Below, piece by piece: positions 48,856 through 63,707 of a stretch of DNA of 64,000 nucleotides. Numbering within the stretch: position 1 is the first letter of the stretch; the number at the start of each line of letters is the position of its first letter. Under the pieces are notes generated by a model. That model ran no database searches. It worked only from the letters and a program-made list of their open reading frames with translations, and was not told the DNA's origin. Both the position numbers and the translations under genes were made by a program. The stretch comes from Acidobacteriota bacterium (GTDB lineage Bacteria; Acidobacteriota; Terriglobia; Acidiferrales; UBA7541): the NCBI GenBank assembly GCA_003167215.1, contig PMTV01000053.1, positions 1 through 64,000 of the forward strand, given 5' to 3'.

Positions 48856-50133
48856 ATGGAGCGATGGCGAAGCTGGGGGATGGGCCGCCGGCCAATCCAG
48901 ATTTGGTACGCTGCGATATTGGTTTTACTTGCGACGCTTCTCGGATCGTTTCTTGTTGCGCAAGAGACGGCGCCAAGGCCTCCGCAAACGGGACTACTTG
49001 CTTCCACGCCCGAACCGGTCTATTCCAACAACACGAACGATCCGTGGAACCGAATATTTTACTTTTTGTTCTCGCGGCGCATCGAAACGCGCGTGAGCGA
49101 GGAGTTTTCCGAGGGCGCACCGTTTGTTGACGGCGTGAGCACGCGCACGTTCGAGCGAAACGAAATCGGGGATCGCGCAATCGACCCGTTGTACCCATCG
49201 CAAATTGTGGATATGGGGAGGCGGTTGGTTCTTACCGAGCCCGGTTACCCCGGCTTCACGAAAGCGCTGCACGAGGCGCTTGATGAGAGCGTCCCGCGCT
49301 CGACGGTTGCCAGGGCGTTGATGCAGAGCGATCTGTGGGGCGCACACGACATTCTATTCGTTCCATTTCCCGCGGCGGACGAGAAGGAGCTTGGTGAACG
49401 CAGGCTTGCGACGCTGGATCTGATCTCGCGCCTGATCAGGAAAATCGCTTTGACGCCCGCGGAGATTAAGTCGTTACCCAACAATTATTCCGCCGCGGTG
49501 CAGAGGCATGCGTTCCCCGATGTGTTTGGAAAGGACAGCGGATGGATAGAGGTCTTGGGGTTTCATCCGCGCGCGCACGATAGTGTTGCCGGCTTTCGCC
49601 GGACGGCGCGTGTTTTTCTGAAACCAGCGCAGGTGCAGCGCGACATGAAAGAATTTCTGAATGGTCTGCCGCAACGAGCCGAAAGTGACCCTATTGGAGG
49701 CTTGGACGGCGTCGCGCTGGTGACGCAACTTCTGTTAATCGATACGGAGGGGAAGTTGCATCCGACCACGCTCACCTCGGAGGCCCAGGTTCGGATGTTC
49801 GAAAATAGCGATGAGAGCAGATCCAAGCCGAATGACGGCAGGTTCAAGACGAATGACGGAACGCTCAAAAGAACTTCGCTGCAAGTGTGCGAGATCAGCC
49901 GGAAACTTTTCGTGCGAGAACCGGGATCGGGAGGGCTGGTCCCAGAGGACGACAGCATGCCCGCTTACGACCAAGGCTACGGCTTCGGCGAAGGCCAAGC
50001 CGTCAATCAAGGGCCAGATGCCTCGATTCTCGTCGAGACGCCGATTCAAGTTACGTTGAGAACGCGCTGCGCCGAGTGCCACGGCGACTTTGACGCAGAT
50101 AAACACATTTGCGATTGCGCGCCCTCCGCGTGA
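48856..50133 (+). CDS. Exported hypothetical protein with a CxxCH motif, possibly frameshifted
   Basis: A 425-residue protein with a hydrophobic segment near 19-37 (WYAAILVLLATLLGSFLVA). The main part is soluble and unassigned. Near the C-terminus, CAECH (about 408-412) is a possible single haem-c site. Directly past the stop, another frame stays open as NPAANETANFVISEKKKRRD then FETLRAYFNG, which reads like the natural end of the protein. This suggests a one- or two-base frameshift near 50115. GGGAGCAGGC precedes the start. No function is assigned. Confidence 0.65.
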   Translation: MERWRSWGMGRRPIQIWYAAILVLLATLLGSFLVAQETAPRPPQTGLLASTPEPVYSNNTNDPWNRIFYFLFSRRIETRVSEEFSEGAPFVDGVSTRTFERNEIGDRAIDPLYPSQIVDMGRRLVLTEPGYPGFTKALHEALDESVPRSTVARALMQSDLWGAHDILFVPFPAADEKELGERRLATLDLISRLIRKIALTPAEIKSLPNNYSAAVQRHAFPDVFGKDSGWIEVLGFHPRAHDSVAGFRRTARVFLKPAQVQRDMKEFLNGLPQRAESDPIGGLDGVALVTQLLLIDTEGKLHPTTLTSEAQVRMFENSDESRSKPNDGRFKTNDGTLKRTSLQVCEISRKLFVREPGSGGLVPEDDSMPAYDQGYGFGEGQAVNQGPDASILVETPIQVTLRTRCAECHGDFDADKHICDCAPSA

Positions 50134-50673
50134 TGCGCCGCCGGTCAGGCAATTGAATCCAGCGGCGAACGAGACTGCAAATTTCGTCATCAGCGAAAAG
50201 AAGAAGCGGAGGGACTTCGAGACGTTGCGCGCGTATTTCAACGGCGCGGGGTCTGCGGCGACCCGGCACTGAGGCACATTCGCCAGTTTGGTGGTTGGCC
50301 ACTGCTTTCGGAATCGGGAAGCGATGCCTACGCATTGATTCCATGGGGGTTCTGTGCTGAGGGCGCCGAAGCACCGCTGACCGGCGTAATCACCGGAAAT
50401 TATTTTTGGGGTGAAAAGTGCGCGTAACTGGCGGGGAGACATTCACTTGCGACTTGGACGAGTTATGCTCACACAGTCAATCACTTGCGTTATTTTTTGA
50501 TTTAGGGTAAAACTTTTTTTGTTAGCCTCGAGATCCGCGCAGAACAGATCACAGTTAGCCAATTCCGAAACGCAAACGGAAAACCCGCCGGCCTAAAGGC
50601 CGCCGCTACAGCACCGATCGTCCCTGAAGTTGTGACTGCATTCCGCAGCATGCAAATCTATACCGGAGAAGAC
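50134..50673. other. Intergenic region, possible frameshifted gene end
   Basis: The first 140 bases hold a coding-like frame (about 50134-50272) that may be the true end of the preceding gene. The rest, including an AT-rich stretch at 50460-50530, has no supported gene. A GGCCTAAAGGCC-type short palindrome lies at 50587-50605. CCGGAGAAGAC at 50662-50673 is the ribosome site for the next gene. Confidence 0.5.
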
Positions 50674-51057
50674 ATGCCGAATTACAACGCGCAAGTACCG
50701 CCGTATTCCATTTTTCCGGGCGACGTGGCGCTCGCCTTCAGCAACGAATCGCCCGCAGCGGGGCAGGCCAGCCAGCAATTCGCTTTGCCCAGCTACGCGG
50801 GATTTCCCGAGAACGGCCGCACGGTACGATGGCAGATCAGCTTCGGCACGGCGCCGACCGCGGTCAGCATTCAACTGCAGACGGCGATGAACGACGTGGA
50901 CGCGCAGTATGCCGTACCCACCGGCGCGGCCAATATGGGTTCCACGCTCACCACGGGCGACAACCTGGTGGCCACAGGTGTGCGCGCAAATTTTGTGCGC
51001 GCGAAAGTTGTGTCGATCACCGGGGGCTCGGGGGTCACGGTGCAGATCCTGGGATAA
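50674..51057 (+). CDS. Phage-structural-like hypothetical protein
   Basis: A 127-residue protein with a beta-rich, low-charge sequence (NYNAQVPPYSIFPGDVALAF, then GRTVRWQISFGTAPTAVSIQ, then RAKVVSITGGSGVTVQILG). The composition (Ala, Thr, Gly, Val, Gln) is like small phage decoration or tail proteins. It lies 940 bases before the terminase genes on the same strand. Assignment to phage is an inference. The ATG at 50674 has GGAGA upstream; an in-frame ATG 24 bases earlier is an alternative. Confidence 0.5.
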   Translation: MPNYNAQVPPYSIFPGDVALAFSNESPAAGQASQQFALPSYAGFPENGRTVRWQISFGTAPTAVSIQLQTAMNDVDAQYAVPTGAANMGSTLTTGDNLVATGVRANFVRAKVVSITGGSGVTVQILG

Positions 51058-51997: not shown

Positions 51998-52357
51998 ATG
52001 GCTGCAACCTCGAAGACGCATGCTGCAAAGGCGGAAAAACGCGTCGGCGCAGATCTTGCGGCTCAAACGAGCGCTGTTCGTTCTGCCGACGACACTGACG
52101 CTGGCGTCAAAAAAATCGGGCTTGCGGAAGCGCTGCGCGAAGAGGGAATTGACGAGAGGAAGATTGCGCGAGGCTACGCGAATACGCATAACAAACTCGG
52201 GGACAGCGCAGACAAGGGTGACATCAAGCTTTTCGTTGAGGTCCTGAAGGAGAACACGCGCACGCTGGAAGCCACTCGCGCCCCAGACCGGCGCGGCGCG
52301 GGCGACGGTCCTTTCACCATAATCATGAGACATAACGTTCCGCGGCCGGCCCGATAG
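51998..52357 (+). CDS. Phage terminase small-subunit-like protein
   Basis: A 119-residue protein with an Ala/Lys/Asp-rich N-terminus and a helical body (KKIGLAEALREEGIDERKIA, then RGYANTHNKLG, then FVEVLKENTRTLEA). It lies 18 bases before the large terminase gene, in the usual order. Small terminases bind the phage packaging site; assignment here rests mainly on the position and the DNA-binding-type helix pattern. Confidence 0.65.
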   Translation: MAATSKTHAAKAEKRVGADLAAQTSAVRSADDTDAGVKKIGLAEALREEGIDERKIARGYANTHNKLGDSADKGDIKLFVEVLKENTRTLEATRAPDRRGAGDGPFTIIMRHNVPRPAR

Positions 52358-52375
52358 AGCCTAGGAGACTGTTCG

Positions 52376-54006
52376 ATGTTGACGGTTACATCCGGCCTCG
52401 AGCGTTTTGCCAACGACGAAGTTGACCTGGGTTACGAGCCGTTTCCTAAGCAGAAAGAATTTCACGCTTCGCCTGCAAAATATCGGCTATTCGGCGGGCC
52501 GCGGGGCCGGGGAAGTCGAAGGCGCTGCTGATGGAGGCGGTGCTTCAGGCGCACGAGCACGCGGGCGTGAACACGCTTTTGTTGCGGCGGACATTTTCGG
52601 AGCTGGAGCAATCGCTGCTGCTTTATTTCCGGCGCGACATTCCGCGGGAGCTATACAAAAGTTACAACGAGTCAAAACACGTGGTGACCTGGTTGAACGG
52701 TTCGACCACGCGGTTCGGATATTGCCAGAGCGAAGCGGACGTTTACCAATACCAGGGCGCCGAATTTCTTTTTATAGGAATTGACGAACTTACCCTCTTT
52801 ACCCTCCGCCAGTGGCAGTTCCTCACGTCTCGCAACAGGTGTCCCGTGCCGGGCGCGTTTGCCTGCATGGCTGGTGCTACCAACCCCGGTAACATCGGTC
52901 ATGCGTGGGTGAAGTCGCTGTGGATCGACAAACAACCCGCGTCCGGCATGGAACATCCCGAAGAATTCGACGCAGCGGATTACGATTTCATTCCCGCGCG
53001 CGTATCGGACAATCCGATTTACGCGGGTGACGAGAATTATTTGAAGACATTGCGCGCGCTGCCTTCGCATTTGAAGCGAGCGTTTCTTGACGGCGACTGG
53101 GACGTTTTCGCCGGGCAGTATTTCGACCGGTTCGATTGCTCGCGACACGTGGTTCGGGCGGAGCAGATCGATTGGAAGCCTTGGTGGGCGCGGTGGATTT
53201 CGATTGACTGGGGGTTCGAGCATCCGGCAGCGGTGTATTGGCATGCGCAAACGCCGGTGGGCGTGGCGCAGCATGGTGGAGCGGCTTCCGTCACGGATGC
53301 GTTGGGCACGGCTGATGAAACGGTAGCCAGTAAGGATTCCCGGAGGATTGTTACTTACCGCGAGTTTGTGACGCATCGGACTTCGCCGCGTGATCTGGCG
53401 CAGGAGATCGTCGCGCGCGGCGTTGGTAGGGATCACGGAACGGCGGGGCAGTCTGATGCGGCGTTGAGTCTAAACAGCCGGCGGGACGCCGGCGCTACTG
53501 AAGGCAACTACACGCGCGAGAAGATTGATGCGATTTACCTTTCGCCGGATGCGTTTGCACGGCGGACGGACGAGGCGTCCATTGCGGATCAGATGGGGGA
53601 TGTTTTTGTCGCGGGGGGAATGCCGCGTCCTGTTCCGGCGGACAACGATCGCGTGGGCGGGTGGATGTTGATGTACCAAATGCTGGACGCGGGGGAGTGG
53701 CTGCTCACGGAGAATTGCGTTGAGCTGATTCGGACGATTCCGAACCTGGTGCGCGATCCGGCGCGCGTGGAAGACATCGAAAAGATGGATGGCGATGATC
53801 CAGCCGATGCCGCGCGGTATGGGCTGAAATCGCGTTATGGCGCACGCCGCGCGTGGGAGACGCATCCGCCGCTCGAACAGCGGGTTGCCGAGCGCGTCAC
53901 CTCAACAGATCCCACGGGGCGTGCGATGCAAGCACATAAATTTCAGATCGAAGAGAAGCGTCGGGTGCAGCCGGTGTCATTTCTGCATCACCACCGGCGC
54001 AGATAG
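52376..54006 (+). CDS. Phage terminase large subunit, frameshift in Walker A
   Basis: DNA-packaging motor ATPase and nuclease of a tailed phage. Frame one starts at ATG 52376 with AGGAGA upstream and runs MLTVTSGLERFANDE to PAKYRLFGGPRG, then is lost; the continuation, GKSKALLMEAVLQAHEH, is in the next frame. A single missing base near 52507-52508 (CC for CCC) would give GGPRGPGKS, a normal Walker A. Downstream FLFIGIDEL is Walker B and the nuclease domain begins near RWISIDWGFEHP. At 53470 an in-frame repeat adds LNSRRDAGATEG. As written, the gene is broken, or the missing base is a sequencing error. The next genes are portal and capsid. Confidence 0.85.
53469..53503 (+). repeat. Palindromic repeat inside the terminase gene
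   Basis: TCTAAACAGCCGGCGGGACG, then CCGGCGCTACTGAA. It keeps the reading frame and encodes LNSRRDAGAT. The flanks differ from intergenic copies (CAAAAGAG), but match the copy in the portal gene at 56019. Confidence 0.85.
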
Positions 54007-54031: not shown

Positions 54032-54466
54032 ATGAACATTCGCGAAACATGGCGGCGGATTACGGCGACGCGCTATACGCGGGCGCTCGAGGCGGACGTG
54101 GCGCGGTTGCGCGCGGAGAATCGGGCGCTGCTGAATTCGATGCTTGGCATCGCGGGCGTTCCGCCGATTACGGTGCTTCCTGATTCAGTGTCGATAGGGG
54201 CATCCGACGCGGAGAGGGTTGCTGACGCTAGCGCCGTACAACACAAACACCGACGAACGCGACAAGTTTTCACCGCAGCGGGCTCAACAGGAAGATCCAC
54301 GGCGCAAAGTGCGCGTTCGAGCGAGACACCCGACCCGACAGTGCTTCCGTCGAACGGAAATGCGCAGGGCGCAAACGTCGTTATGCCAATCCGACGGCGG
54401 TCGTGGCACCAGATTTACCGCATGCTGGAGATTGATTCGGCGAGGAAGAAACCCCAAGAGCTGTAG
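54032..54466 (+). CDS. Small coiled-coil phage-region protein
   Basis: A 144-residue protein with a helical, coiled-coil-like N-terminus (RALEADVARLRAENRALLNS), a Ser/Thr/Ala/Arg-rich disordered middle and a basic end (MPIRRRSWHQIYRMLEIDSA). It lies 25 bases after the terminase on the same strand. It may be a phage-encoded accessory; no family is recognised. Confidence 0.5.
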   Translation: MNIRETWRRITATRYTRALEADVARLRAENRALLNSMLGIAGVPPITVLPDSVSIGASDAERVADASAVQHKHRRTRQVFTAAGSTGRSTAQSARSSETPDPTVLPSNGNAQGANVVMPIRRRSWHQIYRMLEIDSARKKPQEL

Positions 54467-55176: not shown

Positions 55177-57768
55177 ATGTCGATTCAGAAGCTAATTCCG
55201 ATGGCGGATCCGGCGATTGTGCCGGTCGAAGGGCCGGCGAATGCGCCACGCGAAATGACGGAGCGCGCCGGCATCCTCGCCGCGGAGGCCAATCCGTTTG
55301 GGGCGAACAACGAGCAGTTGCCGGAGAAGCTGCAGGAAGCGCTGCGGCGGCTGGTGTTTCAATTCTCGACGGAATCGGAATCCACGCGGCGGCAGGAGGT
55401 GCGACGGATCAAGCAGGCGCACCAATTCTGGCGCGGGCTGCAATATTTGTGGTGGAGCGAGCAGGACCAGAACTGGCATCTTCCGTTTGAGCAGAAAATG
55501 ACGGACGGGTCGTCGATCGAGGATTTGCCGCGCTACGAGTTCGTGACGAATATTTATCAGGCGTTTGGATTGTCGTTGGTATCCGTGCTTTCGCAGGATG
55601 TGCCGCGCGTGCGTTTTTTCCCTTCGTCGGCGCAAGCGGAAGAGGATGTGGCGGCAGCGAAGGCGGCTACGGAAGTGGCGGGGTTGGTTGAGCGCAACAA
55701 CCGCGTCGGCAATTTGATTGTGGACGAAGCGTTTCAGCTTTGGACTGATGGGAAAGTTGGGGCGTACGTGCGGTTTGTCGTCGATGGGCAGCGGTTTGGA
55801 TTTCATCCGGAGACGGAGATTGGCGCGCGGGAAGTGCGGATTGGCGGGGATGTTTACGTTTGTCCGGAGTGCAGTGCTGAGACGGGCGCAGATGGTGGAA
55901 TGGACGAGGAAGGTCAAGAGCAGATCCCTCGCTCCGCTCGGGATGACAGGAAAACGGCAGGAATCGCGAATAGCGGCAACAGCGGCGCCAGCACCTCGAT
56001 GTCCCTGCCGGACGCGGATCTAAACAGCCGGCGAGACGCCGGCGCTACGAAAAGCGGGGCCGCGGCTCGTTATAACAATGGGGCAGCGGATGATTCGGGA
56101 GGCGCACCCCGGGCGTTGCAATGCAATTTTTGCGGGGCGCTGCTGACGGAGGAAGACTTTGTGGCGGCGGAGACGGTCACGGTGCCGACCGGGCAGACGC
56201 GGCTGCGGGTACCGAACGGGCAGGAAGTGATCACGATCGTTGGCGGCCTGGAACTGAAGACTCCGCCGTGGGCTAACGAGATGCACGAGTATCCGTACCT
56301 GCAATGGAATCTCGAAGTGCACCAGGCGCGGCTGCGCGCGGCGTATCCGCGTGCGGCGGACAAAATTGGTTCGCCGGTGGCGCCGGGCGCACAGCAGTAC
56401 GAGCGGCTGGCGCGTCTTTCGCAATCGCAAGGCGGGCCGCTGACCGAAGGCGGCGATTTCAACATCAACTTGATTACGTTTCAGCGGACCTGGCTGCGGC
56501 CGTGGGCGTTTTTTGCGCTAGACGATAAGTCCATGCGCGACGAACTGCTGCAAATGTTTCCGGACGGCGCGTACGTGGCGTTCGCGGGCGATGCGTACTG
56601 CGAATCGCGAAACGAAAATATGGACGACCACTGGCGAGTGCTGCATGCACTGCCTGGAGATGGCTCGAGCGGCCGTCCGGCACTGGGGGATGCGCTGATC
56701 AGCGTGCAGGAACGGTTCAACACGCTTTCGAATTTGCAGATGGAAACATACGAGTACGGAATTCCGCCGATCTACGCCGACAGCGAAGTGCTGGATTTCG
56801 ATTCGCTGCAGAATCAGACCGCCGAGCCGGGTTCGCACTATCCCGCGCGGGCGAAACCGGGGCAGTCGCTGGCGGCGGGTTTTTTCCAGCCGGAGCCTGC
56901 GGAAGTTCCCGGAGATCTTGCCGAACACGCGGCGAATTTGATGGGGCCGATTGCACAGTTTCTGACCGGGGCGTTTCCCGCGCTATTTGGGGGCGCGATG
57001 TCGAACAACGACACCGCTTCGGGTTACGCGATGGCGCGCGACCAGGCCATGGGGCGCATTGGTCTAGTTTGGCGGCGGATGAAATTCTTCCATGCGGATA
57101 TTATGCTGCTGGCGGTGGATTGTTTCCGCCGCAACCGGCCGAACGACGTGGAAGTGACGCTGCTGGGAGCGGGAGCTGCATTTGAATCGCAATGGATTCG
57201 TCTGGCGGACCTGAAGGGGAATTTATTCAGCTACCCGGAAACGGACGAGCAGTATCCGACGCTGTGGTCGCAGCAGCGCGCAGTGTTGCTGCAATTAATT
57301 GGCAATCCCGACCCGCAGATTCAAGCTGTGCTGGCGCATCCGGAAAATATGGCGCTGGTGAAGCGTTTGATTGGTCTGGAAGAATTTGTGATCCCGGATG
57401 AGGAGTCGCGCACGAAGCAGTATCGCGAAATCGCGCAGCTCGTGGCGGAGCTTCCGCTGGTGAAACGGCAGGACGTAACTAGCGCGGTGAATCCTGCGTT
57501 CAAGGAAGCTGTTGCAAGCGGAGTTGACGCAGAACTTATTTTGCCGAGCATCATGCCGGATGAGTTTGCGGACAATCATGCGGTGGAGCTTGAGATTTGT
57601 ATGCGGTGGTTTTCGGCCGACGCCGGGCAGGTGGCCAAGATCGAAGCGCCGTTGGGTTACGCGAACGTCCGCGCGCACGCGCTCTTTCACCGCGACTATT
57701 TGCAGAAGCAGCAAGCCGCGGCGTCGCAACAAGCGCCGCCGATGGCTCCGCCGCGGCCGCGGAGATAA
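55177..57768 (+). CDS. Phage portal protein with interrupted zinc ribbon
   Basis: An 863-residue protein fitting the portal family: QARQFWRGLQ-type helix (HQFWRGLQYLWWSEQDQNW), then RYEFVTNIYQAFGLSLVSVL, a long helical-beta body and the later segment NDTASGYAMARDQAMGRIGL. The portal forms the ring through which DNA enters the head. CPEC (229-232) and CNFC (316-319) are the two halves of a zinc ribbon, separated by an 83-residue insert. The insert contains two repeat-derived pieces: IPRSARDDR and, at 56019, LNSRRDAGATKSG. Length is large for a portal. The reading frame is intact. Confidence 0.85.
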   Translation: MSIQKLIPMADPAIVPVEGPANAPREMTERAGILAAEANPFGANNEQLPEKLQEALRRLVFQFSTESESTRRQEVRRIKQAHQFWRGLQYLWWSEQDQNWHLPFEQKMTDGSSIEDLPRYEFVTNIYQAFGLSLVSVLSQDVPRVRFFPSSAQAEEDVAAAKAATEVAGLVERNNRVGNLIVDEAFQLWTDGKVGAYVRFVVDGQRFGFHPETEIGAREVRIGGDVYVCPECSAETGADGGMDEEGQEQIPRSARDDRKTAGIANSGNSGASTSMSLPDADLNSRRDAGATKSGAAARYNNGAADDSGGAPRALQCNFCGALLTEEDFVAAETVTVPTGQTRLRVPNGQEVITIVGGLELKTPPWANEMHEYPYLQWNLEVHQARLRAAYPRAADKIGSPVAPGAQQYERLARLSQSQGGPLTEGGDFNINLITFQRTWLRPWAFFALDDKSMRDELLQMFPDGAYVAFAGDAYCESRNENMDDHWRVLHALPGDGSSGRPALGDALISVQERFNTLSNLQMETYEYGIPPIYADSEVLDFDSLQNQTAEPGSHYPARAKPGQSLAAGFFQPEPAEVPGDLAEHAANLMGPIAQFLTGAFPALFGGAMSNNDTASGYAMARDQAMGRIGLVWRRMKFFHADIMLLAVDCFRRNRPNDVEVTLLGAGAAFESQWIRLADLKGNLFSYPETDEQYPTLWSQQRAVLLQLIGNPDPQIQAVLAHPENMALVKRLIGLEEFVIPDEESRTKQYREIAQLVAELPLVKRQDVTSAVNPAFKEAVASGVDAELILPSIMPDEFADNHAVELEICMRWFSADAGQVAKIEAPLGYANVRAHALFHRDYLQKQQAAASQQAPPMAPPRPRR
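56019..56056 (+). repeat. Palindromic repeat inside the portal gene
   Basis: TCTAAACAGCCGGCGAGACG, then CCGGCGCTACGAAAAGCG. It is in frame and encodes LNSRRDAGATKS; the same phase as in the terminase copy. Confidence 0.85.
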
Positions 57769-58447: not shown

Positions 58448-59317
58448 TTACAGTGTGCGTTCGATGTTGCTGGCGGAGCGGGAGCTGCCGTAGGCGCTCT
58501 TGTTTTGCGGCGGCGGAGCGACCAAGCGAACGACGTGCAGCAGCCTTTCGGGTTTGAACGGCTTTGCCATGCAGACAACTGCGCCGAGCTGATGGCTGGC
58601 GGCGTAGTCGGCGGGCTGCGCGGCGCGCGTGAGCAGAATTACGGGGACGTGCTGCAAGCGATCGTTGCGTTTGATGATCAGGCAGAGATCGTGGCCGCTC
58701 ATATCCTTGCCTTCCACTTCCGCTAGGAAGCAGACCGGAACGGTGGTGCGGAGAACTTCGAGCGCTTCCTGGGCGGTCGCCACGACGATCACGGTGTAAC
58801 CGTCCTGCTGAAGGGTATTGCGCATGATTTCGGCGGTGCGCTGATCGGACTCCACAGCCAACACGACGGATGGTTGCTTCCTTTGCGGCGCCGGGCTCGC
58901 GGAATTCGGATCGCTCTCGGCAAAGGGATCGCCCTTTGCGACATTCTTTTCGCCGGTTTTTTGGGCGGCTTTCGAGGCGGCGAAGTGAACAGCCACTCCA
59001 TAATTGCCGCCTTCTTGTTCGGAGACGCGCACCACTTCGGCTCGCTGAGCCGTGTTCAAGGCAGCCGCGGCATTGGAATACGGAAAGGTGACGTCGAGGA
59101 TCTGCCCTTTCCAGTATCCGCGGCCCGTGGCGGTGAAAAGCAAACCGTCGCGCGAGACGTCAATGCTCTTGCAGACTTCTTCAAACGGCTCGGGAGAATC
59201 TACCGCGCGGACGTGAACCTGCGCGGAAATTTTCGCGCGCTTCCGGTGGCGGCGTTCTACCTCAATGGACTTCGCTGTGGCTTTTGGTTCGGCGGAAGTA
59301 ATTGGCGTCGTGCTCAT
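58448..59317 (-). CDS. PilZ and degenerate receiver protein
   Basis: A 289-residue protein on the strand opposite to the phage genes. An N-terminal PilZ domain (about 20-118) has RRHRKR (22-27) and DVSRDG (53-58), the two c-di-GMP binding motifs, so it may bind c-di-GMP. A receiver domain (about 150-265) has S158 or D159 at the acidic pair, glutamate E200 at the phosphorylation site (LAEVEG), T230 and K252. It cannot be phosphorylated normally and E200 may mimic the phosphorylated state. Start at 59317 with GAGGTG upstream. The pseudo-receiver at 7198 has the same kind of change. Confidence 0.78.
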   Translation of the reverse strand: MSTTPITSAEPKATAKSIEVERRHRKRAKISAQVHVRAVDSPEPFEEVCKSIDVSRDGLLFTATGRGYWKGQILDVTFPYSNAAAALNTAQRAEVVRVSEQEGGNYGVAVHFAASKAAQKTGEKNVAKGDPFAESDPNSASPAPQRKQPSVVLAVESDQRTAEIMRNTLQQDGYTVIVVATAQEALEVLRTTVPVCFLAEVEGKDMSGHDLCLIIKRNDRLQHVPVILLTRAAQPADYAASHQLGAVVCMAKPFKPERLLHVVRLVAPPPQNKSAYGSSRSASNIERTL

Positions 59318-59873
59318 CCCACACCTCAGAATTTGGCGGGCGCTGGGCGCGTCCGAACGATTCAGCGACGACCCATCAGGAAGACTCAACTCGCGCTGGC
59401 ATATATAGATGTACAGGTACGCGACGGTGCGGGAAATAGTACCTTGGTTTCAACCGAAAAGAATTCTCGGCGTGGCGAATTGGCGGTCGAGGTAAGCCAT
59501 GGTCTTGCAGTAGCTTAGCCGGAGGGACAGCTGTACTCGGATGGTTACCTGTAAGAAGCATTGTGAAAAAATTCCGAGGAAAAAACCCCGCGTGTCGGGA
59601 CGCAGAAAGAGCGCATGCTGCGCCCTCACTACGCCGACCTTGGCGGAAAGAAGCAGTTGCGATTTTACAAGACGAAGATGCCGGGATAAAGCCCGGCGCG
59701 ACGAGTTCAGCGGAAAAAGAAAAGGGCCGACGGGATGCTGACGTTACGGAAAAAAGCGCGCATCAAAGTCCTCGGGTCTATGGAATTTAGGCTTGGCAAC
59801 GGACAAATTCTAGGTTTGGGATTCCAAGTATATCAAGGCCGAGAATCCTAAGAATATATATGGAGAAAACGCT
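59318..59873. repeat. Intergenic region with variant palindromic repeats
   Basis: Two variant repeats lie at 59666-59703 (GATGCCGGGATAAAGCCCGG then CGCGACGAG) and 59712-59756 (AAAGGGCCGACGGGATGCTG then ACGTTACGGAAAA). Both keep the stem but with changes in the arms. The rest holds the start region of the next gene. No gene is supported. Confidence 0.55.
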
Positions 59874-61313: not shown

Positions 61314-62018
61314 TCACAGGGTGGTGCGGTTGGTGGAAACTTTATAGGCGTAGATCGCTTGCGCCACTGAATTTACCAGGGTTTTTACTTGGGCGCTTGT
61401 GTGGTCGGCTGGAAGTTTCATCAGGCCGGCACTCATTAAATTATCGACGGCGGTGCTGAGATTCGAATCTACCTGGGTCCAGTTCACGGATCCATTCGAC
61501 GTACCGGTCACGATGTAAGAATCAATCATACGCAATCCGACGCCTGGCGTGAGCATCTGGAGCATGCCTTCGTTGTCATTCATGGCGGTTGCCAGATCGA
61601 GCGTGAACCACTGGAGATCTTGCACCGTAGTGCCGGACGGGGGAGTAACAAAACCGCCCGCAGATGCGGCGTTCACAATTTGCGACACTGCGAGGTCCTG
61701 CGCGGACTGATTCGCCGAGCCGTTGGCATTTGTGGGAGGCATGGCGTCCGAGATCGCGCTGGCGACACCAGTAAGCAGGAGATAGCTGTGATGCGTCTGC
61801 ACAATCAGCGAAACGGCTACCCCGTAGGCCTCGAATTGAGGCAGAGTCATGCCGTATCGTGGCGAGGTAATTTTTGTGGTGACGGCGTTGGCCACGAAAC
61901 ATTGCACGGCGGCGGCCTGCGATGCGGTACAGCTTTGAGCGCGCACCGAGGGCGCGGCGGAGGCTGCTACTCCCAGACATATTCCTATTCCTAGCAAAGC
62001 TAGTTTTCTTAGTCCCAT
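61314..62018 (-). CDS. Secreted hypothetical protein within the phage module
   Basis: A 234-residue protein with a signal peptide (KLALLGIGICLGVAASAAPS). The rest is an Ala/Ser/Thr-rich helical protein (SCTASQAAAVQCFVANAVTT, then LPQFEAYGVAVSLIV, then LATAMNDNEGMLQML, then VKTLVNSVAQAIYAYKVS). It resembles exported hypothetical proteins of Acidobacteria, not phage proteins. GAGGTGTCGTTTATC precedes the ATG. It lies on the opposite strand between the scaffold-like and capsid genes. Confidence 0.65.
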   Translation of the reverse strand: MGLRKLALLGIGICLGVAASAAPSVRAQSCTASQAAAVQCFVANAVTTKITSPRYGMTLPQFEAYGVAVSLIVQTHHSYLLLTGVASAISDAMPPTNANGSANQSAQDLAVSQIVNAASAGGFVTPPSGTTVQDLQWFTLDLATAMNDNEGMLQMLTPGVGLRMIDSYIVTGTSNGSVNWTQVDSNLSTAVDNLMSAGLMKLPADHTSAQVKTLVNSVAQAIYAYKVSTNRTTL

Positions 62019-62432
62019 GATAAACGACACCTCAACATAAATGTTTACTTCGATTTCACGGGAAGGGGGGCGGAGACGAGCGCAGCGCACTCGCCAGCTT
62101 CCAAGCAAAGACAGTGTGTCTCGCGGCCGGAAACCGTTCAACTGGCCTAGGGGACAGGTGGGGACCAGTACGAATGGCCAGTTTCCCTCGATCCTCGGAA
62201 GTGAGCAACTCAGGCTGACTTTTGGTGCGCCGCATAAACGCTTCTCGTGCCAAACAAATTTTCTCTCGCAATCATCCGTAGAGGACATCCCCGCATTTTC
62301 AGCACTGAAGCGCTAGACAAATAGTTCGACGATTCCGACGCCCGATGGATTCCCGCGCCGCGTGAAACGTGACGTCTGCCCACGGCCGTGGGACGGGGAC
62401 GGATCGTCCATTCCAAGGGAGAATTCAATCAC
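62019..62432. other. Divergent intergenic region before the capsid gene
   Basis: About 410 bases with no supported gene. It holds the promoters of the secreted gene and of the capsid gene; AAGGGAGAATTC at 62414-62425 is the likely ribosome site of the latter. No repeat family was recognised. Confidence 0.5.
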
Positions 62433-63707
62433 ATGGCACAAATGCAAAATGCGCAATCGGTTGCGCTGCAACTGGAAAAAGTCCGGGACAAGCTTCCGCT
62501 GCTGTACGAGCGCGATGACATCCTACTGACCATGATCCAGCAGCGCGGCGACGTGGAACGCGTCAGCTCGCGGAACATGCGTTTGCCACTGCAAATCCGT
62601 CCAGGAGGCAAAGCAGGCTTGGCCAACATGGACGGCGGAGATTTGGGCCGCGGTTCGGGGACGGTGTACGACGTGGCGCAAGTGACGCCGGTATTTTTCC
62701 GGCACGCTGTGGAAATCACGAAGTTGGTGGAATACGCATCGAACGCTCCGGAAAAAGCAATCGAGAACGCAGCGAAACGCGAAGTGAAGAACGCGATGTT
62801 TCAGTTTCGATCGTTTCTCGACAAGGTGATGCAGACGAACGGTAACGGCGTGCTGGGCACCGTCAGCTCAATTACGACCACAGGATTGCCCGCCGGCGTG
62901 GCGGCGCAATTCGGGATGGCCAAGCCGCCGGGCGCGCAGCTTCTCTACTACAACCAGACGGTGCAGGTTTACGATCCCACGCTGACAACGAATCGCGGCT
63001 CGGCGAACATTTTGCTCGTTGATCCGTTCAATTCGCTGATTCAGGTGGACGGATTGCCCACGGGTACGAGCGTCAACGACTTGATCGTTCACGACGGGCT
63101 AACCGGAGCGCAACCTACGTCGCTCTTCGGCATTCTGTATCATCAGACGAACGCGACGACGGGGACGTGGCTGAACTTGAACCGCGCAACGTATCCGGTG
63201 GAACTCGCAACACCCACGGTGAACGGAAACAATTCGGCGATCACGCCGGGTGCAGTGCGCCTTGCCATCAACAAAGTGCGGAAATCGTTGGGCTCGAACC
63301 AGGTTTCGAAGCTCATTGCCTACACGGCGTTGGAACAGGAACATCAGTGGGAGCAGCTCGGCGTCACGATTTCGCAAATCATCAAGGAGGGAGCGGGCGG
63401 GCGCGCGAGCGATCTCGATCTACTCTTCACCGGCGAGAAATCGATGGCGGGAGTGCCGATCAAATCGTCTATCAATGCCAATCAGACGCGCGTGGATTTC
63501 CTGGATCTTTCGCACTGGGGCCGCGCGGTGATGCAAGACATTGATTTCTACGACGTGGGCGGGCAAACCGTGTTCCCGATTTACGGCGCAAGCGGCGGAA
63601 TTTCGGCGGCGTACATCTTCTACTTCGTCACCGGTTTCCAGGTGTGGAACGAGTCGCCCCGCAGCGGCGCGTACATCAACAACCTGGCGATTCCGACGGG
63701 CTACTAG
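62433..63707 (+). CDS. Phage major capsid protein, HK97-fold type
   Basis: A 424-residue protein with the pattern of a phage head protein: a helical N-terminus (QSVALQLEKVRDKLPLLYER), a DDILLTMIQQRGDVERVSSR segment, then PVFFRHAVEITKLVEYASNA, a long beta body (ANILLVDPFNSLIQVDG), and a C-terminal stretch (IPTGY end after VFPIYGASGGISAAY). I recognise it by place and general composition, not by a certain family motif. The ATG at 62433 (MAQMQNAQSVALQ) was chosen because of AAGGGAG upstream. Expected to form the head with the portal. Confidence 0.65.
   Translation: MAQMQNAQSVALQLEKVRDKLPLLYERDDILLTMIQQRGDVERVSSRNMRLPLQIRPGGKAGLANMDGGDLGRGSGTVYDVAQVTPVFFRHAVEITKLVEYASNAPEKAIENAAKREVKNAMFQFRSFLDKVMQTNGNGVLGTVSSITTTGLPAGVAAQFGMAKPPGAQLLYYNQTVQVYDPTLTTNRGSANILLVDPFNSLIQVDGLPTGTSVNDLIVHDGLTGAQPTSLFGILYHQTNATTGTWLNLNRATYPVELATPTVNGNNSAITPGAVRLAINKVRKSLGSNQVSKLIAYTALEQEHQWEQLGVTISQIIKEGAGGRASDLDLLFTGEKSMAGVPIKSSINANQTRVDFLDLSHWGRAVMQDIDFYDVGGQTVFPIYGASGGISAAYIFYFVTGFQVWNESPRSGAYINNLAIPTGY

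Follow-up and report, generated by a model that had tools for sequence, protein, structure and literature searches.

How a terminase gene comes to be divided between two reading frames at its ATP-binding loop, and what this means for the phage-derived genes that surround it, is the question raised by the locus described here. The window, that is, the whole stretch of 64,000 nucleotides that was analysed, corresponds to positions 1-64000 of contig C46 (309,137 bases), part of a 3.78-Mb genome in 68 contigs that is 95.7% complete and whose named relatives are Acidobacteriota and Candidatus Acidiferrales MAGs.

Position of the break in the terminase gene

The gene for the terminase large subunit (TerL) is present in the assembly as two parts that are one base out of register and are split inside the Walker A motif, as the initial annotation had reported. 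It was likewise correct that the upstream frame carries the start, an ATG at 52376 preceded by a ribosome-binding site. The elements of the gene are as follows.

52363-52367, + strand, AGGAG, ribosome-binding site of the TerL gene, seen in the sequence
52376-52531, + strand, 5' part of TerL, 51 codons, with a TGA (52529-52531) that overlaps the ATG at 52531 (TGATG), from the sequence
52450-54006, + strand, 3' part of TerL in the other frame, with AAGPGKS, the remaining ATPase and the C-terminal part, matching phrog_979
52496-52498, + strand, lesion, where the G run lacks one base that the nearest relatives have, in the FGG of Walker A, from a codon alignment and a MAFFT alignment

From the ATG at 52376 the upstream frame reads ...AKYRLFGGPRGRGSRRRC and then encounters the TGA, whereas the downstream frame reads ...IRRAAGPGKSKALLMEA, is open from 52450 to the stop codon at 54004-54006, and has its first ATG at 52531, from which a product of 491 aa would be made. 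The 5' part is 95% identical to the start of TerL in the copies L132/L049, where the motif is in frame. The 3' product matches phrog_979 (terminase large subunit, E 6.9e-28), and the intact TerL orthologue of genome G023 passes the cut-off of the Pfam family Terminase_6N (PF03237); the window differs from both families in that its P-loop is spread over two frames. Each half has its counterpart in the corresponding half of one and the same set of homologues, and chance is therefore not at issue. The break is known from one copy in one genome.

For comparison, TerL relatives were gathered from 38 whole genomes, from named MAG contigs and from IMG/VR. In all 60 distinct close relatives the P-loop is in a single frame with the rest of the protein, reading FGGAAGPGKS in 33 and FGGAAGPGKT in 27, and a frame break at this motif is found in none of them. 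The intact motif is thus not the GGPRGPGKS that had been reconstructed by adding a base at the CC of 52507-52508; AAGPGKS is also what the window's own downstream frame gives. Nor does the missing base belong at that CC, since codon alignment places the lesion at 52496-52498, inside the second glycine of FGG and 9-12 bases further upstream. In the closest copies (L060 and L049/L035) the sequence is ttc ggc ggg gcg gcg ggg ccg ggg, and the window has one G fewer at 52496-52498, together with a synonymous third-base change in the Ala codon that follows the lesion. A homologous protein beginning at 52531, which had been proposed as the observation that would speak against a break, was found in none of the relatives.

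A P-loop divided between frames was also observed in a distant terminase (L115:4950-4990, on the viral contig IMGVR_UViG_3300028832_000317), where VLYGGAA and a stop lie in one frame and AGGGKSYGQ in another.

The phage-derived cluster and its inheritance

The terminase gene is part of a set of phage-type genes, interrupted by host genes, that extends beyond the end of the window on the same contig.

50632-51057, + strand, conserved cluster protein, function not assigned, in most of the TerL-bearing clusters mapped
51998-52357, + strand, probable terminase small subunit, from its position only
54032-54466, + strand, small cluster protein, conserved in mapped clusters, encoded between TerL and the portal-like gene
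55177-57768, + strand, portal-like protein, 863 aa, so named from position and size only, conserved in mapped clusters
58448-59389, - strand, host PilZ and response-regulator gene inside the phage set, kept in genomes without the phage genes
59874-61160, + strand, conserved phage-set protein, 428 aa, between the portal-like and major head proteins, possibly a scaffold or similar
61314-62288, - strand, host gene enclosed by the phage set, retained in G012
62388-63707, + strand, major head protein, with 11 of 13 orthologues matching phrog_14242 (E 3e-8 at best)

Beyond the window end the set continues with a zinc-ribbon protein, a fibre of 1720 aa that carries a pectate-lyase-like domain, proteins of 238 aa and 117 aa, and a 795-aa virion protein (phrog_3287, 8.8e-8). 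The host-type genes interleaved with the set include, further to the right, an NHL-repeat gene (Pfam) and genes that appear TrmJ-like and RidA-like, the latter two names being a reading of the sequence and not the outcome of a family search. Judged by its content the gene set looks podovirus-like, and no tape-measure gene was seen in it. The portal-like protein matched no family, neither it nor the head protein matched any phage record, and a search by sequence of solved structures with profiles of the two proteins returned nothing relevant. AlphaFold models of the head and portal-like proteins had pLDDT values of 41 and 47, too poor for a fold search.

In G023 an SLT transglycosylase gene lies near the cluster, and the portal-like gene is separated from the head-protein region by a Fic/DOC-family gene (PF13784, PF02661; L142:14144-15340) that runs on the opposite strand. 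The C-terminal half (SCLRAGMVVQTKERGTVKIESCQVG...) of a cluster protein at G000:C46:80363-81457 (L130:16363-17457) resembles, by eye, a Hint/intein-type domain, and has no Pfam match.

The position of the cluster can be followed with reference to nadE (NAD synthetase; PF02540, PF00795), a 545-aa gene at C46:91682-93316 that was found in 96 of the 101 genomes searched. In six genomes, which represent five genera (G000 of g1, G023 and G050 of g5, G026 of g8, G034 of g4, and G029 of g11), TerL and nadE are separated by 24-39 kb and share one relative orientation; the order of the phage genes between them is largely kept. Distances for TerL correlate with those for nadE in the 21 genomes compared (Mantel r 0.73, p 0.0001). 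Each of the genera g3, g4 and g5 forms a single clade in the TerL tree as well as in the nadE tree. Three genomes depart from strictly vertical inheritance: G016 strays from g1 in the TerL tree, so that this genus is monophyletic for nadE and not for TerL; in G033 a distance of 115 kb separates the cluster from nadE, and the orientation differs; and G047 (g12) has a divergent TerL and an altered gene order. In the last case (L209, L210) the head protein is ~80% identical and the terminase only ~41-49% identical, amid a rearranged order, which suggests that the terminase has been replaced in g12.

The conserved genes of the cluster are under purifying selection: dN/dS lies between 0.05 and 0.10 for the head protein, between 0.05 and 0.17 for the portal-like protein, and between 0.08 and 0.21 for TerL. 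Relative to the nearest relative, G019, TerL of the window has a dN of 0.029 and a dS of 0.28; the latter is near the dS of flanking host genes (0.14 and 0.20), and cluster and flank therefore look similar in age.

A GTA has been defined by proteins derived from tailed phages, full endogenisation and mostly vertical inheritance, and in addition by the packaging of mostly random host DNA, a head too small for its own gene set, and delivery to other cells (PMC9662315). Three of these six features were found here: phage-derived proteins (TerL, phrog_979; head, phrog_14242; virion protein, phrog_3287), endogenisation (interleaved host genes, the nadE linkage in six genomes, and no tyrosine integrase in the mapped clusters) and mostly vertical inheritance (the Mantel correlation and the three genera monophyletic in both trees). 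On this count the cluster is labelled GTA-like and not a GTA.

Two genomes of the same genus as the window genome, G012 and G010, gave no TerL match in a whole-genome search. At the corresponding locus their host genes are intact and in the same order, with short pieces of phage genes between them. For instance, G012 retains 32 of 439 aa of the head protein (at 97%), 26 of 863 aa of the portal-like protein (at 92%) and 44 of 795 aa of the protein encoded at the 77.3-kb position (at 77%), together with pieces of the 117-aa and fibre proteins; these remnants are in order, in mixed frames, and contain stops. The pieces found in G010 are a partly different set, and in G058 the portal-like gene is partly retained. 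Such remnants between intact host genes indicate that the cluster was once present in G012 and G010 and was removed piecemeal, the host genes staying in place. Excision of a prophage does not fit this pattern, because it would have taken the interior host genes along. These observations are best read as a cluster that many relatives keep whole and under selection, while in other relatives it is decaying. An apparent further case, the palsa_289 copy (G015/L132), was rejected, the terminase break there being a scaffold gap of N.

Probable recent loss and its alternatives

Taken together, these data make it reasonably probable that the locus is a domesticated, vertically inherited GTA-like cluster of a Candidatus Acidiferrales-type Acidobacteriota lineage, in which TerL has, in this genome, recently lost one base of the G run in Walker A. 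Of the three options set out in the initial annotation, inactivation of the gene is thus favoured, loss of a base in sequencing stands as the main rival, and ribosomal frameshifting is disfavoured. A recent and real loss of the motor is favoured over sequencing loss because the cluster has been lost in sister lineages, because comparison over ~140 kb of conserved host coding of the contig brought up no true frameshift, and because the lesion dates after the split from the nearest relative; we infer that the base is truly absent in the organism.

The broken gene would be expected to yield a stub of 51 residues. Re-initiation at TGATG could add no more than a piece of 491 residues, devoid of the P-loop, and neither product would contain a whole P-loop. 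A terminase motor that lacks Walker A would be unable to move DNA into heads. Whereas intact clusters would presumably give rise to DNA-filled particles, heads might here assemble yet stay empty, a phenotype predicted from what is generally understood of terminases. Of the cluster genes, it is that of the packaging motor that was found broken in the window genome, and its break may represent an early stage of the decay that is already far advanced in the sister species.

The main rival is that one G was dropped in sequencing or assembly, with the terminase intact in the organism and the cluster functional there; this is less likely than a real loss. The G was lost from a GC-rich, partly palindromic stretch in which the G run is flanked by GCGG and CCGC, an arrangement compatible with such an error, although the run is merely 3-4 G long. 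In addition, every other mapped cluster gene of the window genome appears undamaged, which fits a very recent lesion and fits an error equally well, and dN/dS of TerL is still 0.10 relative to G019. A second indel, situated only 2.4 kb from the first, concerns a neighbouring host gene.

48856-50133, + strand, neighbouring host gene (CxxCH) with a 2-base deletion between 50086 and 50087, from comparison with relatives

The deletion at 50086-50087 falls directly after the CxxCH motif of a gene that is intact in G019/L046 (472 aa) and open in G012, and two lesions within 2.4 kb could reflect a local assembly fault. Against this, conserved coding of the contig was compared with the genes of relatives over ~170 kb, and no true frameshift was found in the ~140 kb of conserved host coding that lies to the right of 82.5 kb on C46. 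An apparent frameshift at C46:171604 proved to be two adjacent genes, and apparent events at 113412 and 117906 were antisense ORFs. Indels are thus not common on the contig in general, which mildly favours a real lesion, and the recurrent loss of the cluster among relatives likewise argues for a real lesion.

It is improbable that the cluster is a normal prophage, still mobile and integrating at a preferred site. IMG/VR does list many of the relatives as viral contigs, with head, portal-like and terminase genes. However, an integrase or recombinase beside the structural genes, as is characteristic of prophages, was not found in the form of a tyrosine integrase (PF00589) inside the mapped clusters of nine genomes (the window genome and eight relatives). 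Moreover, the interleaved host genes stay when the phage genes vanish, synteny with nadE extends across genera and is accompanied by congruence of TerL with nadE, and the head and portal-like proteins are without a counterpart among phage records.

The recent loss of a G, as preferred here, would have a different significance if the re-initiated product had a use of its own, for instance as a nuclease-only terminase piece. The overlap of TGA (52529-52531) with ATG (52531-52533) and a downstream frame that is intact to 54006 would allow such expression, but in intact relatives that have it the ATG at 52531 is a mere internal Met codon and in none is it a start, and a P-loop-less piece of this kind is very unlikely. 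Least credible is a programmed -1 ribosomal frameshift that fuses the two parts, which the 82-base overlap of the frames (52450-52531) makes geometrically possible, but which none of the 60 distinct relatives, with Walker A in a single frame, would need; no X_XXY_YYZ slippery heptamer is present in the upstream frame of the overlap, the fold downstream of it is unremarkable (rank 13 among 69 windows of the TerL gene), and the break is not a conserved feature, as no relative starts at 52531 and none has the break.

Relation to known systems

Acidobacteriota are one of the dominant soil phyla, and to our knowledge few GTAs are known outside the Alphaproteobacteria. If the cluster makes particles, it would allow genes to be exchanged among soil bacteria that are difficult to cultivate. 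A search of open-access literature gave no direct report of a GTA in Acidobacteriota. It is tempting to propose, with the odds perhaps slightly against so broad a statement, that the clusters represent a podovirus-type GTA lineage of Acidobacteriota that is of independent origin, has not been described before, and has resided beside nadE since the ancestor of the family, perhaps of the order, with a series within one genus that runs from intact through motor-disabled to shredded.

The cluster resembles RcGTA, the alphaproteobacterial type I GTA (Rhodogtaviriformidae), in that head, packaging and tail genes of a phage are fixed in the chromosome and inherited vertically. It differs in belonging to another phylum, in its podovirus-like look, in having no tape-measure gene seen and host genes interleaved, and in that its head and portal-like proteins are unmatched by phage records. 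Among podovirus-like, GTA-like elements outside the Alphaproteobacteria, the closest precedent is FpGTA of Faecalibacterium (PMC12946183), also of another phylum, for which packaging was inferred from particle DNA, whereas the evidence here is genomic. Phage-like regions of Acidobacteria flanked by metabolic genes have been noted in peat moss, on shared contigs of Acidobacteriaceae and Acetobacteraceae, and have been proposed to be cryptic or co-opted (PMC12142844); these contigs come from other families.

Loss and pseudogenisation of GTAs are known in Alphaproteobacteria (PMC9662315, PMC10883770), and pseudogenised clusters there have been read as recent, non-producing 'cheater' lineages (PMC10883770). 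The lineage of the window could likewise be a 'cheater'. A lineage in which only the motor is broken, beside others with intact and with shredded clusters, would offer material for testing how GTAs are lost, and on such a series the view that pseudogenised clusters mark recent 'cheater' lineages (PMC10883770) would become testable.

A separate observation concerns a palindromic element that lies in frame in the terminase gene.

53467-53510, + strand, in-frame palindromic repeat inside TerL (NSRRDAGATE), from the sequence

Alignments of TerL with its relatives are gapped at residues ~302-328, at the palindromic repeat. The element, CCGGCGGGACGCCGGCGCTAC, has 12 copies in the window against 0 expected, all on the + strand, at positions that include 4121, 18894, 28280, 35907, 43173, 43964, 53478, 56028 and 63804, and it is in frame in both the terminase and the portal-like gene, where it reads SRRDAGAT. 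It is similar to palindromic elements that encode protein, such as those of Rickettsia. With up to 3 mismatches allowed, 31 sites are found in the genome, 15 of which are on C46, and 13 of those 15 lie in its first 68 kb.
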